A stretch of 13,185 nucleotides of DNA from a bacterium (lineage in GTDB: Bacteria > Coprothermobacterota > Coprothermobacteria > Coprothermobacterales > JAADFF01). The translations under genes and the position numbers were made by a program. The notes under the pieces were generated by a model, which did not search any database, had not been told where the DNA came from, and saw only the letters and a program-made list of their open reading frames with translations. Positions 1-10,259 of the stretch are shown piece by piece (position 1 is the first letter of the stretch; every line of letters begins with the position of its first letter). The stretch lies in contig JAMORD010000006.1 in the NCBI GenBank assembly GCA_027063755.1, positions 1 through 13,185 of the forward strand, read 5' to 3'.

Positions 1-110
1 TTAAACAGTATGAGGCCTATCTTGAGGCCGAGTTGAGACTTGTTAGGGAGAGACTTGCTCAGCTTGAGGGCAGAGTACCTCCTGCACCGCCTGCTGAGCC
101 TGGAGTATGA
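1..110 (+). CDS. 3' end of a DUF5320-like small protein with C-terminal coiled coil (partial)
   Basis: Only the last 35 codons are in the window, read in the frame that ends at the TGA at 108-110. The residues are a charged, heptad-like helix (LEAELRLVRERLAQLEG) followed by a Pro/Ala-rich end (PPAPPAEPGV). DUF5320 proteins commonly end in such a short coiled coil after an N-terminal MPxxDxTGPxGxGP motif, and the next gene has that N-terminal motif, so this is probably its upstream paralogue in the same transcript (27 nt between stop and next start). The N-terminus lies outside the window, so the family call is an inference from the coiled coil and the neighbour. An unrelated coiled-coil protein cannot be excluded. 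Confidence 0.55.
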   Translation, partial: KQYEAYLEAELRLVRERLAQLEGRVPPAPPAEPGV

Positions 111-137
111 TTAGATAATTAAAGGGAGGTGAGTAGT

Positions 138-506
138 ATGCCTTATGGAGATTGCACAGGACCAGATGGACTCGGTCCCATGTGGGCAAGGGGAGGATAT
201 GGTTATCCTGCTACACCTGTAAACTATGCTGGATATAGAAGACCTTATGGATGGTTTGCCCCATACTACAATTGGGGTTATGCGCTTGGTCGTGGACTTG
301 GTAGATGGCTTGGTGGTTTCTTTGGTGGATACGGCTGGGGTCGCGGTAGAGGCCGTGGTGGCTGGGGCCGTGGTCGCGGATACGGCATGGGCTATGGCAT
401 GGGATATGGCCGTGGCTGGGGCCGTGGAGGTAGAAGAGGCTTCGGCGGTAGAGGACGCGGAGGCCGTGGCGGACGCGGTTGGGGCCGCGGAGGCTGGGGC
501 TGGTAA
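138..506 (+). CDS. DUF5320-like protein with Arg/Gly-rich tail
   Basis: This is a 122-residue protein. Residues 1-20 carry the MPYGDCTGPDGLGPMWARGG motif, close to the MPxGDxTGPxGxGPMTGRG signature of DUF5320 proteins, which are small, uncharacterised and often coded beside NifX-type and MinD-type cofactor genes in anaerobes. Residues 30-60 are rich in Tyr, Trp and Pro. From about 63 to the end the chain is almost only Gly, Arg, Trp, Tyr, Phe and Met, with RGG/GRG units, ending in GGWGW. The coiled coil common at the C-terminus of the family is missing. I chose the ATG at 138 because GGGAGGT at 124-130 sits 8 nt upstream; an in-frame GTG at 129 overlaps that ribosome site and would be wrong. 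Function is unknown; RNA binding, self-association or metal handling by the tail are all inference. Confidence 0.8.
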   Translation: MPYGDCTGPDGLGPMWARGGYGYPATPVNYAGYRRPYGWFAPYYNWGYALGRGLGRWLGGFFGGYGWGRGRGRGGWGRGRGYGMGYGMGYGRGWGRGGRRGFGGRGRGGRGGRGWGRGGWGW

Positions 507-527
507 TAGCCTCTGCAGTTTGTAGTT

Positions 528-559
528 AAAGGGGGCCCCAGGCCCCCTTTCTTTTTTTA
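528..559 (+). terminator. Strong intrinsic terminator after the DUF5320-like gene
   Basis: A perfect 10-bp inverted repeat, AAAGGGGGCC (528-537) and GGCCCCCTTT (541-550), is separated by CCA and followed by C and seven T residues (551-558). It ends the transcript of the DUF5320-like genes, so the NifX-like gene downstream should have its own promoter. Confidence 0.92.
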
Positions 560-598
560 CTGGATGTGTGAAATATGATTATTCTTTTCATATGAATG

Positions 599-629
599 GT
601 GTATACACTTTTTATATATGTGGTATACT
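599..629 (+). promoter_or_regulatory. Candidate promoter with two GTATAC palindromes
   Basis: Between the terminator and the NifX-like gene there is a perfect 10-bp palindrome GTGTATACAC (599-608). A second GTATAC core lies at 623-628, 22 bp from the first core and so on roughly the same helix face. The hexamer TATACT (624-629) could be a -10 element and overlaps the second core. The -35 position, 17 bp upstream, would fall on the first palindrome and is a poor match to TTGACA. Overlap of both elements with repeated palindromes suggests an operator, but no regulator is identified. Confidence 0.35.
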
Positions 630-671
630 TGAAAGTGTGAAGATATATAAACTTTTTGGGAGGTGGTTAGT

Positions 672-1229
672 ATGATCGTAATACTGTCTGAAGGTCCAGA
701 TATCAATAGCCCCGTGGCAAGCAGATTTGCCCGTGCTCCATATATAGGTTGGGTTCAGCCCGATGGTTCTGTTCAGTTTGAGCCCAATCCAGTGCTGAAC
801 GAAGCCCACGGTGCTGGTCCGAGGTTTGTCATGATGCTTTCGGAGGCCGGTGTTACCGATGTTATATCTGGTGCGGTACCCGGTACAAATGCCATGACAG
901 CGCTTATGGAAGTAGGTATTAATATGTGGGATGCTGCAGGCATGACAGTGGCCCAGGCCCTTGATGCTTTTAGAAATGGTGCCCTTCAGCCTACACCAGT
1001 AGCCGGTCGTCCCGGTGGAGGTATGGGTCCTGGTATGGGCGGAGGTTTTGGCGGCGGCTTCGGCGGTGGATTTGGCGGAGGCCGTGGCATGGGTAGAGGC
1101 ATGGGCGGCGGTTATGGCCGTGGTATGGGAGGTGGCCGCGGAATGGGCGGCGGCCGAGGATTTGGTGGCGGTCGTGGCATGGGCCGTGGTAGAGGCGGTG
1201 GTTTTGGAGGTGGCAGAGGTGGCTGGTAA
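672..1229 (+). CDS. NifX/NifB-type cofactor-binding protein with Gly/Arg/Met-rich tail
   Basis: The protein has 185 residues. Residues 1-110 fit the dinitrogenase iron-molybdenum cofactor family (Nitro_FeMo-Co, the NifX/NifY/NifB C-terminal fold): a first beta strand MIVILSE, an APYIGW segment near 22-27, a conserved ISGAVPGTNAM turn near 65-75 where the family has a Gly-rich loop, and a TVAQALDAFRNGAL helix. Members bind or carry metal clusters: FeMo-co precursors in NifX, a Mo-Cu cluster in orange protein. Residues 113-185 are a tail of Gly, Arg, Met, Phe and Tyr ending in GGRGGW. The ATG at 672 lies 8 nt after GGAGG (659-663); the in-frame GTG at 663 overlaps that site. It overlaps the next, related gene by 11 nt. 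No Cys or His is seen in the tail, so direct metal ligation by the tail is unlikely except through Met. Confidence 0.85.
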   Translation: MIVILSEGPDINSPVASRFARAPYIGWVQPDGSVQFEPNPVLNEAHGAGPRFVMMLSEAGVTDVISGAVPGTNAMTALMEVGINMWDAAGMTVAQALDAFRNGALQPTPVAGRPGGGMGPGMGGGFGGGFGGGFGGGRGMGRGMGGGYGRGMGGGRGMGGGRGFGGGRGMGRGRGGGFGGGRGGW

Positions 1230-1575
1230 TGTCTGCATCTTTGCCACCTCTCCCTCTGAAAATGCTCAGATCTTTAAAGGTTTTTGTAAGGTGCCTTTTA
1301 TTGGATTTGTAGAGGGCGATGATATTGTGTGGATAGAGAATCCCTTTGTAGAAGATAGCGGTGTTGCCTCTATATTTCTAAAATTTTTGCTTGATAAGGG
1401 AATTACAGAAATCATTGCTGGTGATGCTCCCGGAGCCGGTGTGTTTCCTATTTTGGAACGAGCAGGTATCAATGCTTATAAATATGAAGGCACAGTAAAA
1501 GATGCTATAAATGCCTATAAAAGTGGAAAACTTACACCTGTTAAAGACGGATTTCCCAGAGGTGATTGCAGATAA
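1219..1575 (+). CDS. Second NifX/NifB-type cofactor protein, tail-less
   Basis: This 118-residue protein aligns along its length with the preceding NifX-like domain: VCIFATS matches the first strand, VPFIGF matches APYIGW, IIAGDAPGAGVF matches the ISGAVPGTNAM loop, and TVKDAINAYKSGKL matches the C-terminal helix. It lacks the Gly/Arg tail. The start chosen is GTG at 1219, because GGAGG (1206-1210) lies exactly 8 nt upstream, as in the two genes before it, and the first beta strand follows four residues later. This start lies inside the last codons of the upstream gene (stop at 1227-1229), so translation is probably coupled. An ATG at 1229 is in another frame. Three Cys (6, 23, 117) are present. 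Its likely role is as partner or second carrier of the same cluster as the upstream protein; no substrate can be read from sequence. Confidence 0.82.
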   Translation: MAGNVCIFATSPSENAQIFKGFCKVPFIGFVEGDDIVWIENPFVEDSGVASIFLKFLLDKGITEIIAGDAPGAGVFPILERAGINAYKYEGTVKDAINAYKSGKLTPVKDGFPRGDCR

Positions 1576-1595
1576 CGGAAAGGTGGTGAAGCCCT

Positions 1596-2453
1596 GTGTA
1601 TATCGCTGTTATCAGTGGAAAGGGTGGCACAGGTAAGACGACAGTATCTGTCAATCTTGCATATGTTGCCAGTCAGCATGAGCCAGTTTATCTTGTAGAC
1701 CTTGATGCGGAAGAACCTAACGGACATTTGTTTTTCAAAGATAAGATACAGTGGCAGGGGGAAGAGATAGTGTATAAGAAACTGCCCCGTGTTAACTTAG
1801 ACATATGCACTTTCTGCGGTGAGTGCCAAAGGGCTTGCCAGAAAGGTGCCATTGTTGTTGGTAAAAAGACTGTAATGGTATTTGATAATCTCTGTCACGG
1901 ATGTATGCTGTGTCAGTATGTGTGTCCCGAAAAGGGGGCCATTACAGAGGAGTTAAAACCCATTGGTTATGTCAGATGGGGAAAAATCTCTGATACCCTT
2001 GATTACTATATGGGGCTTATGAATGTTGGTGAGTTGTCTGCTACACCTGTTGTACGTGAGGCAAAACACAAGGTACCCGGTGATAGGCTTATTATTGCCG
2101 ATGGTGCTCCCGGTGCCTCATGTCCTGTTGTTGAGGCCATAGATGGGGCAGACTATGTCATATTGGTAACAGAACCAACACCGTTTGGCCTTCACGACCT
2201 TGAGGTAGCTCACGATATTGTGCGGGAGTTGGGGCTTCGTGCCGGTGTTATCATCAACAGAGATGATAAAGATAGGCCGTTTGAGCCTCTTGAAAACTTT
2301 ATAAGAGATAGAAAGCTTCCAGTGCTTGCCCGTATACCATTTAGCAGGGATATTGCCAGCGTTTATTCCCGTGGGGGCATCCTTGCAGAGCATCTTCCAT
2401 TTGTCAGGGAGATATTTGAGGATGTCTACCAGAAGGTGGTGAAGCAGAGATGA
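1596..2453 (+). CDS. MinD-type P-loop ATPase with inserted ferredoxin domain (first of pair)
   Basis: This 285-residue protein has the deviant Walker A of MinD/Mrp/NifH-type ATPases, GKGGTGKTT at 8-16 with the signature Lys9, and a switch/Walker B region ADGAPG at 168-173 followed by Cys176-Pro. An inserted ferredoxin domain provides two full [4Fe-4S] sites: Cys71, 74, 77, 81 and Cys100, 103, 106, 110. This layout is the MinD-superfamily ATPase with an inserted ferredoxin (COG1149 type), usually coded as tandem pairs. In Desulfovibrio related pairs belong to the orp locus; the general family is linked to iron-sulfur cluster or cofactor handling and is not tied to a proven reaction. The GTG start at 1596 follows AGGTGGTG (1581-1588). 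It overlaps the next gene by 4 nt (ATGA), so the two ATPases are coupled and may form a heterodimer. Confidence 0.9.
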   Translation: MYIAVISGKGGTGKTTVSVNLAYVASQHEPVYLVDLDAEEPNGHLFFKDKIQWQGEEIVYKKLPRVNLDICTFCGECQRACQKGAIVVGKKTVMVFDNLCHGCMLCQYVCPEKGAITEELKPIGYVRWGKISDTLDYYMGLMNVGELSATPVVREAKHKVPGDRLIIADGAPGASCPVVEAIDGADYVILVTEPTPFGLHDLEVAHDIVRELGLRAGVIINRDDKDRPFEPLENFIRDRKLPVLARIPFSRDIASVYSRGGILAEHLPFVREIFEDVYQKVVKQR

Positions 2454-3331
2454 TACAGATAGCCGTTATCAGCGGAAAAGGTGGCACAGGCAAGACAACA
2501 CTGACAGGTTCTTTGGCCTCATACTTTAAAGGGAGAATAGCCGTAGATGGCGATGTTGATGCCTCTAACCTCTATATGCTCTTTGACCCTGAAATGAAAG
2601 AGAAGCATGATTATGTGGCGTCTAAAAAGGCCGTTATCAACAATGAGGGTTGTATAAAGTGTGGTATCTGTAAAGATGTGTGTATTTTTGATGCCGTGCG
2701 TATAGATAAAGATGGCAACTATTACATTAATACCTTTGCATGTGAAGGGTGTGCCTATTGCTTTTATGCATGTCCTGTTAAGGTGATTGACATGTACGAT
2801 GAAAAATCCGGTGAATACTACTGGGGCGATTCTGAGCGTGGTCCAGTTGCCTATGCAAGGCTCTTTCCCGGTGAGGAGACCAGCGGTGGTCTTGTAGCCG
2901 AGGTGAGGCGTATTGCACTTCAAAAGGCCCTTGAAAATCCAAAAAAGCCTTCTATTATCATAGATGGAGCCCCCGGTGTGGCATGTCCTGCCACATCGTC
3001 TATCACCGGCACAAACTATGTTGTTGTCGTTACAGAGCCAACAGTGTCTGGTCTTCATGACCTTGTGAGGGCCGCAGAGATGATAAACCACTTTGGTATA
3101 CCATTTGGCGTTGTTGTCAATAAATATGATCTGTCTGAAGAGAAGACTGCCGAGATAGAAAACTGGTGCCGTGAAAACGGGGTAGATTTTCTTGGCAAAA
3201 TACCGTTTGACCCCAAGGTGGTGGAGGCCACCCGTCTGGCAAAGCCTATTATAGAGGCGTTTCCCGACAGTCCATCGGCAAAGGCCATAATGAATATCAT
3301 TAAAACTATAGAAGAAAAATTCCAGATATAG
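2450..3331 (+). CDS. MinD-type P-loop ATPase with inserted ferredoxin domain (second of pair)
   Basis: This 293-residue paralogue of the gene before it has the deviant Walker A GKGGTGKTT at 9-17 (Lys10), ferredoxin Cys68, 71, 74, 78 and Cys98, 101, 104, 108, and the switch region DGAPGVACP at 172-180 with a Cys at the same place as in its partner. The VVTEPT segment near 193-198 and the following GLHDL helix are shared by both copies and are typical of the family. The ATG at 2450 overlaps the upstream TGA and AGAAGGTGG lies at 2431-2439. The insert differs in sequence from that of the first copy, which fits an asymmetric pair rather than a recent duplication. Probable role: ATP-gated loading or electron transfer to the NifX-type carriers coded upstream; this is inference from context. 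A hairpin terminator follows the stop. Confidence 0.9.
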   Translation: MIQIAVISGKGGTGKTTLTGSLASYFKGRIAVDGDVDASNLYMLFDPEMKEKHDYVASKKAVINNEGCIKCGICKDVCIFDAVRIDKDGNYYINTFACEGCAYCFYACPVKVIDMYDEKSGEYYWGDSERGPVAYARLFPGEETSGGLVAEVRRIALQKALENPKKPSIIIDGAPGVACPATSSITGTNYVVVVTEPTVSGLHDLVRAAEMINHFGIPFGVVVNKYDLSEEKTAEIENWCRENGVDFLGKIPFDPKVVEATRLAKPIIEAFPDSPSAKAIMNIIKTIEEKFQI

Positions 3332-3332
3332 T

Positions 3333-3356
3333 GGGGAGGGTAACCTCCCCGTTTTT
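3333..3356 (+). terminator. Hairpin terminator or attenuator before the radical SAM gene
   Basis: GGGGAGG (3333-3339), loop GTAA, CCTCCCC (3344-3350), then GTTTTT. The stem is strong but the T run is only five bases, and the ribosome site of the next gene starts five bases later (3361). No room remains for a separate promoter, so partial read-through into the radical SAM gene is likely. Confidence 0.72.
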
Positions 3357-3373
3357 CATTGGAGGTGTTATCT

Positions 3374-4312
3374 GTGGAAGCGAAATACAAGTATGTCTTC
3401 GGTCCAGTTCCTTCTCGCAGACTGGGACAGAGTCTTGGTATTAGCCCTATTCCACCAAAAACATGTAACTACTCATGTGTTTACTGTCAACTGGGACGAA
3501 CAAAGACATTTACCAATACACGGCAGATGTTTTTTCCACCGGAAGAGATCTCTGCAGAAATCAAAGATGCCCTTTCTAAGTATACCGATGTAGACTTTAT
3601 TACATTTGTAGGCGAGGGAGAGCCTACACTGTATCTTGGTATAGGTGATGTTATACGCATGATAAGAGACTATACACCTCTTCCTTTGTCTGTGATTACC
3701 AATGGTGCCCTTTTATATGACAAAGATGTGAGAAGAGACCTAAAACCTGTATCTGTTCTGATGCCAACATTTGATGCACCCGATGAGGATACATGGAGGC
3801 GCATAAACAGACCGCACATAGACCTGAAATTTGACAGGGTGCTTGACGGTCTGTTTTCTATGAAAGAAGAGATGGATGGCGAGATGTGGCTGGAGGTTAT
3901 GCTTGTAAAGGGTATAAATGATGACGAGGATACCCTTTATAGGATGAAAGAGGTTATAGATAGGCTAAAACCCCACAGGGTATATATCAATGTACCGATT
4001 AGACCACCGGCTGAAAAGTGGGTGGAGATGCCCGACAAAGAAACGCTGGAAAGGGCTACAGAGATACTGGGTGCTATACCTCTGGGTAGCATGGAGGAGG
4101 GCACATTCTATGTTTCTGGGAATGATCCTATAGAAGGTATACTTCGGATCATTAAAAGACACCCCATGAGGGAGGAACAGATACGCAAGGTGGCAGAATG
4201 CAAAGGGTGGGATGCAGAGAAACTTCTGAAGGACCTTGCCTCCCGAGACGATGTTGAGATATTACAGGCACATGGAACAAAATTCTACCGCTACAAGGTG
4301 TGGAGGGTATAA
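3374..4312 (+). CDS. Radical SAM protein (COG0731-like)
   Basis: The protein has 312 residues. It has the radical SAM cluster motif CNYSCVYC (Cys31, Cys35, Cys38) in the family context FGPVPSRRLG...PPKTC, and GEGEPTL at 80-86, equivalent to the GGE motif that contacts SAM. The (beta/alpha) core runs to about residue 235. A charged helical tail with a winged-helix look (HPMREEQIRKVAECKGWD onward) fills the last 60 residues. This family, common in archaea and anaerobic bacteria, is annotated loosely as a radical SAM or wybutosine-synthase-related Fe-S oxidoreductase, and its reaction is not known. The GTG at 3374 is used because GGAGG (3361-3365) stands 8 nt before it; a TTG at 3359 precedes that site. 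Its place after NifX-like and MinD-like genes hints at cofactor assembly, as NifB is also a radical SAM enzyme, but it lacks NifB's own signature and the link is inference. Confidence 0.85.
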   Translation: MEAKYKYVFGPVPSRRLGQSLGISPIPPKTCNYSCVYCQLGRTKTFTNTRQMFFPPEEISAEIKDALSKYTDVDFITFVGEGEPTLYLGIGDVIRMIRDYTPLPLSVITNGALLYDKDVRRDLKPVSVLMPTFDAPDEDTWRRINRPHIDLKFDRVLDGLFSMKEEMDGEMWLEVMLVKGINDDEDTLYRMKEVIDRLKPHRVYINVPIRPPAEKWVEMPDKETLERATEILGAIPLGSMEEGTFYVSGNDPIEGILRIIKRHPMREEQIRKVAECKGWDAEKLLKDLASRDDVEILQAHGTKFYRYKVWRV

Positions 4313-4359: not shown

Positions 4360-5433
4360 ATGTGGTATTTTGTTGTAGCTATTTTATTTTTTGCTCTTGG
4401 TTTTGCAACGGCTTATCTTATCAATTGGAAGCTGTTAAAAGATGTTTCCCGTGCTAAAAAGGTTTTAGAGGATAACAGAGATGTATATGAGGCTCATATA
4501 GCCAATTATGAGGGAGACACTCTTTCAAGATTTATACAGGCTTTAAAAGACCTTCATAGTGAGGTACAGATGCTGAAAAGCAGGGTTCAGGGGATTTCTT
4601 CGTCCATCAGTGATACATCTGAGGCTCTGGGTATGCAGAGAGAGAGCCTGAGAAAGGCTATGGAGCTTATTGAGGAGTCATCAAGAGTGGTATCCGATTC
4701 GCTGGGTAATGTAGAGAGCATATCTTCACAACTTGATGTAGCGGCACAGTCTTTAGCCAATAGTGTTGAAGTATTATCCCAAACTATCAGCACAATAGAA
4801 GTTTCTACAACAGACGCAGAACATAGTCTTGAGCATGTTGAAGCGTCTATTGGTAAGGAAGTAGAAAATATACATTCTGATTCTCGCAGACTTAAAGAGC
4901 TGGAGCGGGCCGTTGGTGATATAGAAAATATTACGAGTCAAATTGAGTATATTGCAAATAAGACAAAGTTGCTTTCACTCAATGCCTCTATAGAGGCGGC
5001 CCGTGCCGGAGAGGCAGGTAAAGGCTTTTCTGTGGTTGCCATGGAGATAAGAACCCTTGCAGATAGTTCCCGTGGGGCAGCTGAAGAGGTAAGGCAAACG
5101 GTGAAAAACCTTGTTGATCTTATTCATGAGGCCTACGATAGCAGCATTACCCGTGTTGAAGATGTGAAAAAACTTCAGAAACTGGTGGCTGAGACCAACA
5201 ATAAGGTGCGTGTGATTATGGATGCCATAGAGAAAGTTGATATTATGGGCTCTGACCTTGCTGCCGTATCAGAAGAGCTGTCAGCTTCGGTAACAGAGGT
5301 GTCTGACTCTATAAAGCGCATTGCTTCTACTATGGATAGGCTTGTTGAGTCTATTAAAGAGATGGCTTATGTTGAAAATGAAATAGAGCGTATAGATAAA
5401 TCTATAGAAAACCTACTTGAGAATGTGCAGTGA
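4360..5433 (+). CDS. Methyl-accepting chemotaxis protein without sensor domain (copy 1)
   Basis: This 357-residue protein has one hydrophobic helix at residues 2-22, then positive residues (NWKLLK), so the rest should be cytoplasmic. No periplasmic domain, PAS, GAF or HAMP region is seen; a long helical stretch (about 30-190) leads into the chemoreceptor signalling tip at 195-237 with [17 protein letters not shown] and [11 protein letters not shown]. The residues matching E. coli Tsr Asn381, Glu385 and Arg388 are kept, while the usual QTN before LLxLN reads KTK. The descending helix runs to the end. The chain has no CheR/CheB-tethering pentapeptide at its C-terminus. Likely role: clusters with CheA/CheW and reports an internal or membrane signal. 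The ATG at 4360 follows GGAGGAGG (4343-4350) by 9 nt. It is followed by a terminator and then a paralogue. Confidence 0.9.
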
Positions 5434-5524: not shown

Positions 5525-5548
5525 CTTATCTGTTAGGGGGTGCGGGGG

Positions 5549-6634
5549 ATGTGGTATTTGGTGATACTGGTGCTCGGTATTGTTGTGGGGTATGCTATTC
5601 GGTATATGCAATGTCTTCCCAGACAGCGTGAGCTAGATAAACTTCGGGAGCTGACCCTTAGTGGAAGGGTGCTTACCGATGAAGAGGTTGAAAAATATGT
5701 TCGCACACAAGAATGGGTAAAACATCTTTTGGTGATACTAAAAGAGCTCCGGAATACAATTGATAAGTTAGAGAATGCCATTAGGGAGACAACAAGTAAA
5801 GTTAAAGGTGCGGCCGATGCCCTGGAGATGCAGAGAGATAAGCTGAGAAATGCCATTACCGATGTGGAGAAATCATCGGAGGTTATTAACGAAGCTTTGC
5901 AGGGTGTAGATTCTATATCTAAACAGTTGGAGATTGCTGCCAATGATTTGGCTGTTAGCACGGAGAAACTCTCATCGGCCATAGGTCAGATAGAGGATTC
6001 TACAGCAGAGGCAGAGAGGGGACTGGGCGATGTAGAGAAGGTTATGAATAAGGAGATGGAGCATGTTCGTGAAGATAGAGATAGGCTGAAACATCTGGAA
6101 TCGGTGATATTCAGTATAGGTACCATAACCGATCAGATAGAAAAGATAGCAAAAAAGACAAAGCTGCTTTCACTCAATGCCTCTATAGAGGCTGCCCGTG
6201 CCGGTGAAGCGGGAAAGGGATTTGCCGTTGTGGCTATGGAGATAAGGAATCTGGCCGATAGTTCCCGTGAAGCTGCGGAAGATGTAAGAGAAACGGTATC
6301 TGATCTTATAACCCTTATCAAGGAAGCCTATTCTCAAAGTGAAGAGCGGGTTGTTGATATGGAGGCTCTTGAAAAACTTCTTCACATCACTAACGACAAG
6401 GTGCGAAGTATTATGGATGCTATTGAAAGTATCAATGTTATGGGAGAAGACCTTGCCGCTGTTTCAGAAGAGCTGGCGGCGTCTACATCTCAGGTGGCTG
6501 AATCCATAGAGAGTATTACCATGAGTATGGATACCCTCAATGGTGCCATACACCATATGGCATCACTGGAGAGGGAGCTGGCACAGCTGAGGCAGGAGAT
6601 AGATGAAGCTCTGAAGGTTTTGCAGATGGAGTAG
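5549..6634 (+). CDS. Methyl-accepting chemotaxis protein without sensor domain (copy 2)
   Basis: This 361-residue paralogue of the preceding receptor shares the MWY start, a single membrane helix at 2-19, no ligand-binding or HAMP domain, and a signalling tip at about 197-239 with [17 protein letters not shown] and [11 protein letters not shown]. The tip again has KTK where most receptors have QTN. The segment between the membrane helix and the coiled coil (about 22-60) differs most between copies and includes a [14 protein letters not shown] stretch; this could be where the inputs differ. I prefer the ATG at 5549 over the GTG at 5540 because it lies 8 nt after AGGGGG (5535-5540) and matches the start of copy 1. 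No terminator is visible downstream before the convergent phosphatase gene. Confidence 0.9.
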
Positions 6635-6782: not shown

Positions 6783-7412
6783 TTATTTTTTCTTTTTCAT
6801 GCTGTTCATATTCCTTAATGTGTTAATGACAAGCTTGGCGGCAAGTGTAAGGGGATAGAAGATATACATATGGCCTTCTTGTTCTTCGCCGTCTATCCAC
6901 ACTGTAAATTGGACAGAGGCCACTTTTCCCTTCATGTTTTTCTTGATATCTTCAAGCATGTCTTCGGTAAGCCCGTTTTCCAGTAGAAGGAAAGTGGGAG
7001 TAGTAATATCTACAAAGGCACCTGTTAGTTCGGAAAGGGCCCTTGCAGCGGCACCCATCATTTGATTCATGGCCTCCATAAGTGCAGATGACGCCAAGTC
7101 ATCAAGCTCTGTTACTTCCATGCCCATGGGGGCAAGCATGAGATTGGCTATTTTGATAGCCATGCCCTCTCTCAGTGTCATGAGAGAAGAGCCTGTAATA
7201 TCACCCTTGTAGTTAACAGATATGAGTATTTTCATGTCACCTGGGTTTTCTACAACAGGTTTATCGCCAAGCCATACCTTGGGGGATGTAAACTGAATTT
7301 TTCTGCCTGTAAGCTCCGATAGCGAGATAGAGGCAGCACCCATGGCAATACTACCAATTTCGCCCAGCATGGACATCAGGGCATCGCTATTGACTGCACT
7401 CTCTTCAGGCAT
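6783..7412 (-). CDS. Stand-alone FliY-N/CheC-type CheY-P phosphatase
   Basis: The 209-residue protein has two copies of the CheC/FliY phosphatase helix. The second is canonical: Ser109-x3-Glu113-x2-Asn116-x22-Pro139, in EAMNQMMG, the form seen in FliY. The first keeps Ser14-x3-Glu18 and Pro44 but has Ser21 where the catalytic Asn is expected. Members remove phosphate from CheY-P. FliY proteins continue into a FliN-like switch domain (about 380 residues in B. subtilis); here the chain stops after the phosphatase domain and ends in KKKK, so it is not a flagellar switch part in itself. The ATG at 7412 follows AGGTG by 7 nt; a GTG at 7421 overlaps that site. It faces the two receptor genes, suggesting a shared signalling path. 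CheX or CheC are the alternative names. Confidence 0.87.
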   Translation of the reverse strand: MPEESAVNSDALMSMLGEIGSIAMGAASISLSELTGRKIQFTSPKVWLGDKPVVENPGDMKILISVNYKGDITGSSLMTLREGMAIKIANLMLAPMGMEVTELDDLASSALMEAMNQMMGAAARALSELTGAFVDITTPTFLLLENGLTEDMLEDIKKNMKGKVASVQFTVWIDGEEQEGHMYIFYPLTLAAKLVINTLRNMNSMKKKK

Positions 7413-7447
7413 TTTTATCACCTATCTTTATGTTCACTCATCACTTT

Positions 7448-7521: not shown

Positions 7522-7785
7522 TTACTCTTTGGGCTCAACGATGAACTTGATTGCTGTGCGCTCCTCCTCACCGATCTTGACATCGGTGAACCCGGGGATG
7601 CACACGAGGTCAATACCATTTGGTGCGAGATAACCTCTTGCGATAGCGATTGCCTTAACAGCCTGGTTTACAGCACCAGCACCAATTGCCTGCAGCTCGG
7701 CCTCACCGCTCTTACGAATAACCTCGGCGAGTGCACCGGCAGCCTTCTTAGGGTCAGTCTTAGCAGAGATCTTCAGAACTTCCAT
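7522..7785 (-). CDS. spoVS: Stage V sporulation protein S
   Basis: This 87-residue protein matches SpoVS almost end to end: MEVLKISAK at the N-terminus, QAIGAGAVNQAVKAIAIARG at 32-51, and EERTAIKFIVEP at the C-terminus; the B. subtilis protein has 86 residues. SpoVS is a small Alba-fold-like, probably nucleic-acid-binding protein, needed for spore coat and septation events in Bacillus and also kept in non-sporulating thermophiles. The ATG at 7785 gives the conserved MEVLK start; a GTG just before it (7788) is closer to the ideal distance from AGGAGGGG and could also be used. The gene is monocistronic with its own promoter, 5' hairpin and terminator. All ten Ile codons are ATC or ATT, with no ATA, unlike its neighbours, which points to high expression. 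Its presence does not prove sporulation. Confidence 0.95.
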   Translation of the reverse strand: MEVLKISAKTDPKKAAGALAEVIRKSGEAELQAIGAGAVNQAVKAIAIARGYLAPNGIDLVCIPGFTDVKIGEEERTAIKFIVEPKE

Positions 7786-7808
7786 CACTTGATCCCCTCC
7801 TTTTCTAA

Positions 7809-7822
7809 TGGGTTTTTACCCA
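7809..7822 (-). promoter_or_regulatory. 5' hairpin in the spoVS leader
   Basis: On the minus strand TGGGT-AAAA-ACCCA forms a 5-bp stem with an A4 loop. It begins about 7 nt after the -10 element, so it should sit at or within a base or two of the 5' end of the mRNA, a place where such hairpins can slow RNA decay. It also covers the stop codon of the ATPase gene. Confidence 0.45.
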
Positions 7823-8763
7823 AGATTTATTATACCATTTATCTTTTTCTTCCAATATGGGTGAAGAAGCGCAAAGTGTCCACTTTTGTTTCTATGCAGT
7901 ATACCAACGGAGACAAGTTTTTCTATGAAGTCTAACTTTTTTATCTTGGGGTATTTGAGCCTTATCAGTTTTTTAGGTGCTACTACTTCACCTTCGGTGG
8001 CTACAACCTTTAAGAGGAAGAGTGCCGGTTCTGGTAAGCTGTTTATAAGGTTTTGCCACGCTGTGTCAATGCCCGATTCCCATATGTCTCTTGCAAATTC
8101 TGGGTTTCGCACCTTGTTTCTGATGTATAGGGCTATTTCCAGCCATGTGCGTTTACCATTAGGTTTTTTGGCTGGTGCCTTGAGTATCTCTTCCACCATA
8201 TACCGTGCAGCATCGGGACTATGGGCACCAAGGTTGATATCTCCATGTTTGTCAAGCATTAGGGTTATTGTTGTATCACTGGGTTTAATGCCACCGATAT
8301 GCACATCGTACATGTCCTTATCGGCAAACAAGAGCACAGGAGTGTCAGTTGCCAGTGCCAGTTTCTCAATGTCTTCTGCTTCTATATGAATATTACCCTT
8401 TAGTTTGATAAACCAGAAAGGCCTCGGCAGTGTGCGTATAAGGAGATAAGCAAGTGCGGTTTTCCCCGTGCCGGTGGCTCCTCCTATTGTCAGTCTGCCC
8501 TTTCTGATAAACCTGTCTTTGATATCGTCAAAGTCAAATGTATGCACAAGGTGGCTGCTGCGATGAACAGGGATGTAATCAATGGCCGGCGATATCATCT
8601 TCTTGTTGGTAATGAGATAGATGTCTGCAAGTTCTGTTTCTGGTAAACCATCTACCTCTCTGTAGTTCCAGCCCATGCTACGGGCCAATACTTCTCTCAT
8701 ATGTACATCTTCTACATTGGTTTTAAGCCAATATGAAAATGCGTCCCTAATAATTTCTTTCAT
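7816..8763 (-). CDS. Orphan P-loop ATPase, unknown function
   Basis: I do not recognise this 315-residue protein. It has a clear Walker A, GGATGTGKT at 94-102 (Lys101), preceded by a predicted strand RLTI, and a Walker B-like hydrophobic strand VLLFAD at 143-148. A following TTITLML strand and SPDAARYMVEEIL helix suggest a compact AAA or STAND-like ATPase core. Residues 1-90 look like an all-helical or mixed N-terminal region, and 245-305 (EPALFLLKVVATEGEV, then LVSVGILHRNKSGHFALLHPYW) look like a winged-helix domain, as in archaeal-type AAA ATPases. No signal or membrane helix is seen. I chose ATG 8763 because GAGGTGAT precedes it; the longer frame upstream runs into the divergent gene. The spoVS promoter lies in its 3' end. 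It could be regulatory, DNA-linked or defence-related; the sequence does not decide. Confidence 0.8.
   Translation of the reverse strand: MKEIIRDAFSYWLKTNVEDVHMREVLARSMGWNYREVDGLPETELADIYLITNKKMISPAIDYIPVHRSSHLVHTFDFDDIKDRFIRKGRLTIGGATGTGKTALAYLLIRTLPRPFWFIKLKGNIHIEAEDIEKLALATDTPVLLFADKDMYDVHIGGIKPSDTTITLMLDKHGDINLGAHSPDAARYMVEEILKAPAKKPNGKRTWLEIALYIRNKVRNPEFARDIWESGIDTAWQNLINSLPEPALFLLKVVATEGEVVAPKKLIRLKYPKIKKLDFIEKLVSVGILHRNKSGHFALLHPYWKKKINGIINLG
7829..7855 (-). promoter_or_regulatory. Extended -10 promoter of spoVS
   Basis: On the minus strand TGGTATAAT (7837-7829) is a perfect -10 hexamer with the TGn extension. TTGGAA (7855-7850) is a possible -35 at a short 15-bp spacing, which an extended -10 can tolerate. 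The promoter lies within the last codons of the ATPase gene. Confidence 0.65.
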
Positions 8764-8810
8764 ATCTATCACCTCTTCTATTAATATATACCTTGTGGGG
8801 GTGATATTGT
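8764..8810. promoter_or_regulatory. Divergent intergenic region with back-to-back ribosome sites
   Basis: Only 47 bp separate the start codons of the ATPase gene and the NAD(P)HX repair gene. It contains both ribosome sites (GAGGTGAT on the minus strand; GGGGGTGAT at 8797-8805 on the plus strand) around an A/T core, TATTAATATATA (8779-8790). Any two promoters here must overlap or extend into the opposite genes; no clear -35 boxes are visible. Confidence 0.35.
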
Positions 8811-10259
8811 ATGTTGCCACTTGTGGGAGCAGGTGAAATGGCATTGCAAGATGCACTGGTGCAGGAATCTCTTGGTATTCCCGGCTCAGTGCTTATGGAG
8901 AGTGCCGGCAGAAGTGTAGGTGAGTTCATACTGACAACGCTGGATCCAGCAGAAGTTACTGTTCTCGTTGGTCCGGGTAATAATGGTGGTGATGGCTATG
9001 CCGTTGCCAGATATTTACTGTCGTGGAATATACCGGTAAAGGTATATGCAGCAGAGCCTAAATCTCGGCTTGCCATTATGCAGAGGCGACTATTTACCCG
9101 TTCAGGAGGTAAGGTATTTCCTCTGAAGGATGTCTTTGCTGTTGACAGTATGGATGTTGTTGTTGATGCCCTATTTGGTGTGGGGTTAAAGAGGCCTCTT
9201 GATGGTATATATGCAGATGTTGTTAGCTATATGTCTGAAGTATCGTCCCGTGTTAGGGTTGCTGTTGATATGCCATCGGGACTTTCTGCAGATACAGGTA
9301 TGCCTATGGGAAGTGTTTTTCCGGCTGACTATACCATTACATTTGGACTACCTAAACTGGGTTTGTTTCTTGAGCCTGGCTTTATGTTTTCTGGCAAGAT
9401 AAGGGTAGATTCTATTGGTGTGCCCTTGTCTGTGTGGCTCTCAAGCATATCCGTGAAACATTGGGCTGTGGTCAAAGAGGATGTTCAAGTGGCATTGGCA
9501 TCGCTAACATCTCCCAGCCATAAGGGAGAGGCCGGAAGGTTGCTTATTGTTGGAGGTGGAGATATCTACAGCGGCGCACCGCTCATGGCAGCCCTCGGTG
9601 CTATGGCCATGAGAACAGGTCTAATATATGTAGCCGTGCCAGACAAGATAAAGCCGTATGTAGCAGGAAAGTATCCAGAACTTATTGTAATAGGTTGGAA
9701 TGAGTTTGATACAGAACTGTTGGAGAAAGTTGATGCCATTGTTGTAGGACCTGGTATGGCACAGCTGCCACCATTTATAGACAACATCTTAGATGTGCCA
9801 GTACCCCGTGTTGTTGATGCCTCTGCTATACGGAGGGATATTCTTATAGGCATGAAGGGTAGTTATGTTATTACCCCTCATCCCGGTGAAGCGGCGCGGT
9901 TGCTCGGCACCGATGTAGAAAAGGTGAAAAACAATAGACTTCGCACGACACTGGAGCTTCTCAACTATGCCCCTGTTGTTGTTTTAAAAGGCAGACGTAC
10001 CATTACAGCTTCAGGTTCTGTCAGGTGGATAAATACATCGGGCAATGATCTCCTTGCTATTGGTGGTTCCGGTGATGTTTTGTCTGGCATAATAGGAGGC
10101 TTAATAGCCAGAGGACTTGATATTGCTACATCCTCATGGGCCGGTGTCTATATACATGGCTGGTGGGCAGATTATATGAAAGACAATGGTGGTATGTTAC
10201 TACCTCACAAGGTTATAGATATAGATTTCTTTACAGAGCTTTTTAAAAGATCATCCTAA
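8811..10259 (+). CDS. nnr: Bifunctional NAD(P)HX epimerase / ADP-dependent NAD(P)HX dehydratase
   Basis: This 482-residue fused enzyme repairs hydrated NADH and NADPH. The epimerase domain fills residues 1-210, with GPGNNGGDG at 54-62, DALFGVGLKRPLDG at 119-132 and the VDMPSGL motif at 152-158. The ribokinase-like dehydratase domain follows from about 220, with SHKGEAGRLLIVGG at 236-249, VGPG at 312-315, ITPHPGEAARLLG at 354-366 and the anion-hole GGSGDVLSG at 418-426 containing the catalytic Asp422. The usual GNPGMATGGTGD is GNDLLAIGGSGD here; the GD core is intact. Length and domain order match E. coli Nnr (YjeF). The ATG at 8811 follows GGGGGTGAT by a usual distance. The gene stands alone between divergent and convergent neighbours; its 3' end overlaps the permease gene by 17 bp. 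The protein is cytosolic. Confidence 0.95.
   Translation: MLPLVGAGEMALQDALVQESLGIPGSVLMESAGRSVGEFILTTLDPAEVTVLVGPGNNGGDGYAVARYLLSWNIPVKVYAAEPKSRLAIMQRRLFTRSGGKVFPLKDVFAVDSMDVVVDALFGVGLKRPLDGIYADVVSYMSEVSSRVRVAVDMPSGLSADTGMPMGSVFPADYTITFGLPKLGLFLEPGFMFSGKIRVDSIGVPLSVWLSSISVKHWAVVKEDVQVALASLTSPSHKGEAGRLLIVGGGDIYSGAPLMAALGAMAMRTGLIYVAVPDKIKPYVAGKYPELIVIGWNEFDTELLEKVDAIVVGPGMAQLPPFIDNILDVPVPRVVDASAIRRDILIGMKGSYVITPHPGEAARLLGTDVEKVKNNRLRTTLELLNYAPVVVLKGRRTITASGSVRWINTSGNDLLAIGGSGDVLSGIIGGLIARGLDIATSSWAGVYIHGWWADYMKDNGGMLLPHKVIDIDFFTELFKRSS

Follow-up and report, generated by a model that had tools for sequence, protein, structure and literature searches.

The window analyzed here, that is the whole stretch of DNA under study, is the entire contig JAMORD010000006.1 (13,185 nt) of a 1.5-Mb draft genome. 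The locus of interest fills its first 4.3 kb, with every gene on the + strand and with the same gene order in a sister genome of the same genus. The genes named by an earlier sequence-only reading, namely DUF5320-like genes, two NifX-type genes, two ferredoxin-containing MinD-type ATPases and a radical SAM protein, are all found where that reading had placed them, as judged from sequence, Pfam matches and synteny with the sister. Both of the DUF5320-like genes it counted are present, but the first is represented only by its 3' end, encoding a coiled-coil end (1..110, +), because the contig edge coincides with the start of the window. The intact sister copy (G001, L062:13987-14223) encodes 78 aa and scores 35.7 bits against PF17253 (cut-off 27), so that the truncated gene passes the cut-off through its complete counterpart. 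The second gene (138..506, +) encodes a DUF5320-headed protein of 122 aa that is rich in RG, W and Y and has a tail with a pI of ~11.9. This protein has no Pfam match at E 0.1 and does not reach the PF17253 cut-off of 27 bits; its assignment is based on the head motif MPYGDCTGPDGLGP and on weak phmmer similarity to a genuine DUF5320 protein (E 3e-6). Elsewhere, DUF5320-type segments are fused to the FeS domain PF04060 (L076:6665-7054) and to a two-cluster ferredoxin (L063:6354-6911), and the RG module therefore moves among iron-sulfur proteins. Our search of the open-licence literature on DUF5320 returned off-topic papers only.

The first NifX-type gene, hereafter NifX1 (672..1229, +), encodes a protein of 185 aa devoid of cysteine, in which a PF02579 domain (IPR003731; 34.7 bits, cut-off 26.3) is followed by a Gly/Arg/Met-rich tail ending in RGGW. 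The tail comprises 81 residues, including 48 Gly and 10 Arg, and has a pI of 12.0. NifX2 (about 1219..1575, +), the start of which overlaps the stop of NifX1, is a tailless NifX-type protein of 118 aa with three cysteines; it remains under the PF02579 cut-off (21.3 bits) and is assigned by its similarity to TM1290 (E 1e-7) and by its position in the NifX tree. An additional frame preceding NifX2 (1015-1218) was discarded as an artefact of repeats, running as it does within the NifX1 tail. In the tree, NifX1 and NifX2 form a lineage-specific tandem pair (support 99/97), which lies inside a grouping with MTH1175, TM1290, ORP and the Thermococcus IssA-type proteins (92/94); both are on long branches and show no specific grouping with the IssA-type protein.

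NifX1 has in common with IssA, which stores iron and sulfur as thioferrate in Pyrococcus furiosus, a NifX-type domain joined to a positively charged Gly/Arg tail with an extreme pI (10.7 for the IssA tail; PMC5524996). The same paper reports these features also in uncharacterised homologues from non-thermophiles, called IssX. The IssA family is further marked by conserved acidic residues for ferric iron and by the binding of thioferrate as large particles. NifX1 differs from IssA in its long branch and in lacking, in our alignment, the aspartate of the IVD motif that is common in relatives; moreover, the aromatic type of tail described for IssA is carried in the window by the DUF5320-headed protein. 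Further components of the window are the ATPase pair and a gene for a radical SAM protein, neither of which is mentioned in the passages of PMC5524996 considered here. In a Thermococcus genome, a tandem of NifX genes encodes two proteins with Gly/Arg tails, one of which has a Pro-rich stretch, one tail Cys and a Trp/Gly/Arg tail and thereby agrees with IssA (PF2025) as described in PMC5524996. The tail of the 138-506 protein resembles this IssA-type tail beyond composition (1/500 shuffles as good), and that of NifX1 matches the tail of the other Thermococcus NifX protein, of 157 aa (0/500 shuffles as good). Since all these tails are of low complexity, their likeness may be convergent.

Downstream of NifX2 lie ATPase A (1596..2453, +; Pfam CbiA and Fer4) and ATPase B (2450..3331, +; CbiA, ParA and Fer4_21), the start of the latter overlapping the stop of the former (ATG on TGA). 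Each has a MinD-type P-loop and two inserted 4Fe-4S ferredoxin motifs. Two MinD-type ATPases of this kind together with a NifX-type protein are also characteristic of the Desulfovibrio ORP complex (Orp3, Orp4, Orp8 and Orp9; PMC6345978), in which MrpORP transfers clusters to Orp3 and Orp4, the proteins that resemble our ATPase pair by their description in that paper. The kinship with orp perceived in the sequence-only reading thus holds at the level of protein families. The window, however, lacks a gene for MrpORP (Orp9), its ATPases scoring 35 and 47 bits against the NF041136 cut-off of 450; it also lacks the sigma-54 activator that governs the divergent orp operons, no such gene being seen by reading among the open reading frames of either the window or the contig of the sister. 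Beyond what is present in Desulfovibrio, it contains the DUF5320-like proteins, the tails and the radical SAM gene. One may suppose that a heterometal sulfide cluster (Mo-Cu or similar) is bound by the NifX proteins, which would form a complex with the ATPase pair and serve in positioning or regulation, rather than in storage. The gene combination just described, the match of NifX1 to the ORP structure 2wfb (E 1e-6) and the molybdopterin-family enzyme encoded in the genome would all agree with this. Yet MrpORP and the activator are missing from the window, the structurally known ORP chain, of 120 residues, leaves no room for such a tail, Orp9 has no such tail (PMC6345978) and the relatives of the locus adjoin iron genes, as detailed below; hence, we regard an Orp-type role as unlikely.

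That all these genes form one run, as previously proposed, is correct insofar as they share a single strand. Nevertheless, the sequence fits a series of three linked segments better than one smooth operon, because hairpins interrupt it at 528-550 and 3330-3353 and both places carry a hairpin in the sister as well. The first (528..550, +), a strong intrinsic terminator 3' of the DUF5320-like gene, has a stem of 10 pairs followed by 7 T and is replaced by a different hairpin at the corresponding place in the sister. The second (3330..3353, +), a terminator-like hairpin with a 10-pair stem and a U run, separates ATPase B from the radical SAM gene and is kept in the sister. A consensus scan predicts a promoter-like site with an extended -10 for the NifX1 unit (602..629, +), situated in a block that is nearly identical in the sister. 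Overlapping this site are the palindrome GTGTATACAC (599-608) and the inverted repeat ACACTTT/AAAGTGT (599-638 region), which, being conserved in the sister, possibly constitute an operator. A search of the window with Rfam matched no riboswitch or known RNA. Of the three segments, that of the radical SAM gene is probably the least expressed.

The radical SAM gene (3374..4312, +; Pfam Radical_SAM, 1.7e-16) most likely starts with GTG at 3374, after GGAGGTG, and encodes a protein of 312 aa with a CxxxCxxC core and a C-terminal winged helix, both of which are recovered in its AlphaFold2 model (pLDDT 94). Among fold matches, PFL activase, NifB, RlmN, TYW1 and viperin are nearly tied (NifB with Z 19.4). 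TYW1 and viperin are the nearest annotated sequence models of the SAM core, yet the scores fall far under the curated cut-offs: 50 bits against 317.95 for TYW1 (TIGR03972) and 45 bits against 180 for viperin. The structural matches listed for the winged helix are ArsR/PadR/MarR-like repressors, with Z under 8, and speak neither for nor against a RiPP-type maturation; no RRE-type entry appears among the matches listed, which is likewise no evidence against it. Searches of the open-licence literature found nothing on COG1149/COG0731 or on UPF0026/TYW1-like radical SAM proteins.

The residues of this protein bear directly on the previous suggestion of a NifB-like builder, according to which the radical SAM enzyme would make a special iron-sulfur cofactor and the NifX proteins would carry it to a client enzyme. 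A radical SAM fold beside a NifX domain is indeed reminiscent of NifB and NifX in the assembly of the nitrogenase cofactor; the core fold is NifB-like, the NifX genes are adjacent and their linkage is recurrent (see below). However, the three cysteines of the CxxxCxxC motif are conserved in 64/64 relatives, whereas Cys occurs in at most 8 of them at any other column, and thus the extra ligands of NifB type are absent. The fold, tied as it is with others, does not favour NifB, and a winged helix takes the place of the NifX domain on the radical SAM protein. No nitrogenase was found either, in agreement with the sequence-only reading, for the component 1 family (PF00148) has members in 0/2 genomes, namely those of the window and its sister (88 and 93% complete), with a positive control. 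Furthermore, the radical SAM gene and the ATPase pair lie apart in most genomes. On account of the cysteine pattern, the idea of a NifB-type builder was dropped from its leading place, and we now regard it as very doubtful.

The association of the radical SAM gene with the other families was evaluated in 98 genomes, mostly of different families. A strong homologue is encoded in 24/26 genomes possessing the ATPase pair vs 19/72 of those without it (Fisher p 3e-9), a difference confounded by anaerobic life. In 5/23 independent genomes the radical SAM gene lies within 10 kb of the pair, when 0.23 would be expected (an excess of ~20-fold), and a separate scan of named genomes found ATPase genes at less than 8 kb in 12/80 radical SAM loci, against ~0.8 expected on the assumption of 1.5 pairs per 2.5 Mb; these chance rates were calculated from the size of the genomes and an assumed number of copies rather than from matched controls. 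ATPase, NifX or DUF5320 genes occur within 5 kb in 24/79 loci, a count that includes a few weak NifX calls. With a looser clustering that includes Mrp, the ATPase/Mrp/NifX group is the commonest neighbour of the radical SAM gene (33/79 loci), the next one reaching 11/79. The linkage is found in archaea (Methanosarcinales, ANME-1, Methanoliparum, Lokiarchaeota, Altiarchaeota and Thermoplasmata) and in bacteria (Anaerolineae, Spirochaetaceae and the phylum of the window), dispersed across the radical SAM tree (12 changes or more) and with differing gene orders; in a Thermosipho genome, DUF5320 genes lie immediately 5' of the radical SAM gene. The sequence-only reading had staked its grouping on such co-occurrence, and genes for the radical SAM protein, DUF5320, NifX and the ATPase pair do co-occur beyond chance in unrelated genomes.

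These distributions are relevant to two further explanations. The radical SAM gene could be a passenger in a conserved neighbourhood of anaerobes, with no functional tie to its neighbours: a conserved hairpin separates it from them, both families track anaerobic life, and most COG1149 pairs in the 98 genomes have no radical SAM gene nearby. An adjacency about 20 times above expectation in independent genomes, with different gene orders and at least a dozen changes on the tree, makes this improbable. Alternatively, the enzyme would modify RNA in the manner of TYW1 or RlmN, the winged helix binding nucleic acid and the tie to iron-sulfur genes reflecting shared regulation only. TYW1 is among the best matches in both sequence and fold, a C-terminal winged helix is present, and a TrmO-type tRNA methyltransferase lies near the radical SAM gene in 5/79 loci, SAM methyltransferases in 7/79. 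This explanation is weakened by the low score with the TYW1 model (50 bits vs 318) and by the clear predominance of ATPase/Mrp/NifX genes among the neighbours; we consider it possible but rather unlikely.

The neighbourhoods of relatives point to iron. DUF5320/NifX genes come after Fur in the loci of three relatives, and in that of another they follow genes for a DtxR-FeoA protein, FeoA and FeoB; the window itself has no iron regulator. A run in a Methanosarcinales genome (L206:3198-10321) starts with DUF134, Mrp, a NifX protein with a Gly/Arg tail, DUF5320 and a ferredoxin with a GRG tail, and continues with DUF5320, a NifU_N scaffold, NifX, the ATPase pair and the radical SAM gene. A similar run, NifU-type scaffold included, is present in ANME-1. 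On pyrite, Methanococcus voltae raises its levels of two IssA homologues and of radical SAM proteins encoded nearby (PMC8516115, PMC9431491); the neighbouring locus tags Mvol_0689 to Mvol_0698 recall the window in joining IssA homologues to radical SAM proteins that respond to an iron sulfide mineral (PMC9431491), but these radical SAM proteins have extra cysteines and look NifB/SPASM-like, unlike that of the window.

From the gene content, synteny, recurrent linkage, tail similarity, iron-linked neighbours of relatives and lack of extra cysteine ligands, all directly observed, we infer with a probability of roughly 0.55 that the locus serves the storage and delivery of iron and sulfur in anaerobes, with a radical SAM accessory. 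Against this reading stand the long branches of NifX1 and NifX2, the missing IVD aspartate of NifX1, the possible convergence of the tails, the lack of an iron regulator in the window and the many COG1149 pairs with no radical SAM gene close by. Iron-sulfur storage is nonetheless a better proposal than the cluster of unknown identity put forward previously, in view of the IssA-like Gly/Arg tails and the iron regulators and transport genes beside relatives. The NifX1 domain would bind iron and sulfide. The resulting anionic iron-sulfide polymer, which is thioferrate in the case of IssA, would be wrapped and condensed by the Gly/Arg tails, cationic in both NifX1 and the DUF5320-like protein. Tailless NifX2 may act as a smaller carrier, while the MinD-type ATPases, with their two 4Fe-4S motifs each, would draw on ATP and electrons for the loading or unloading of iron-sulfur units, which they would hand over to client proteins. 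The radical SAM protein would then be a low-expressed accessory enzyme, rather than a cluster builder of NifB type, and its substrate would be a small molecule, a protein or an RNA connected with the iron-sulfur economy. That its direct target is the storage system itself, for instance through a modification of the Gly/Arg-rich tails or of the DUF5320 proteins that enables them to bind or release the iron-sulfide polymer, is a speculation to which we assign little probability; if true, anaerobes would possess a widespread system for storing iron and sulfur that depends on a radical SAM enzyme.

Little is known about the way in which strict anaerobes keep iron and sulfur in reserve and deliver them to enzymes, IssA being the sole characterised thioferrate store that we found in the open-licence literature. 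If the storage and delivery reading is true, the partners of such a store would now have names, that is RG-tailed DUF5320 proteins and an ATP-driven pair, plus the NifU scaffold and Mrp in archaea, and a radical SAM enzyme would be tied to an iron-sulfur store in both domains. Housekeeping iron-sulfur assembly is probably not the role of the locus, because a NifU_N protein is encoded elsewhere in the genome. Across the phylum, such a protein is found in 5/7 genomes (open frames of 212-222 aa), and SufB/SufD (PF01458) is absent from 7/7 (G000, G001, G002-G005 and G008) and present in 14/14 controls.

In the remainder of the window, tandem genes at 4360-5433 and 5540-6634 encode chemoreceptor-like proteins, each of which has one membrane helix at its N-terminus and lacks an evident sensory domain; in the sister genome, a single chemoreceptor-like gene occupies the corresponding place (L062 8711-9844). 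The protein encoded at 7816-8856 has only a weak match to an nSTAND3 ATPase, and its neighbours on the minus strand encode SpoVS (7522-7788) and a CheC/CheX-like protein (6783-7421).
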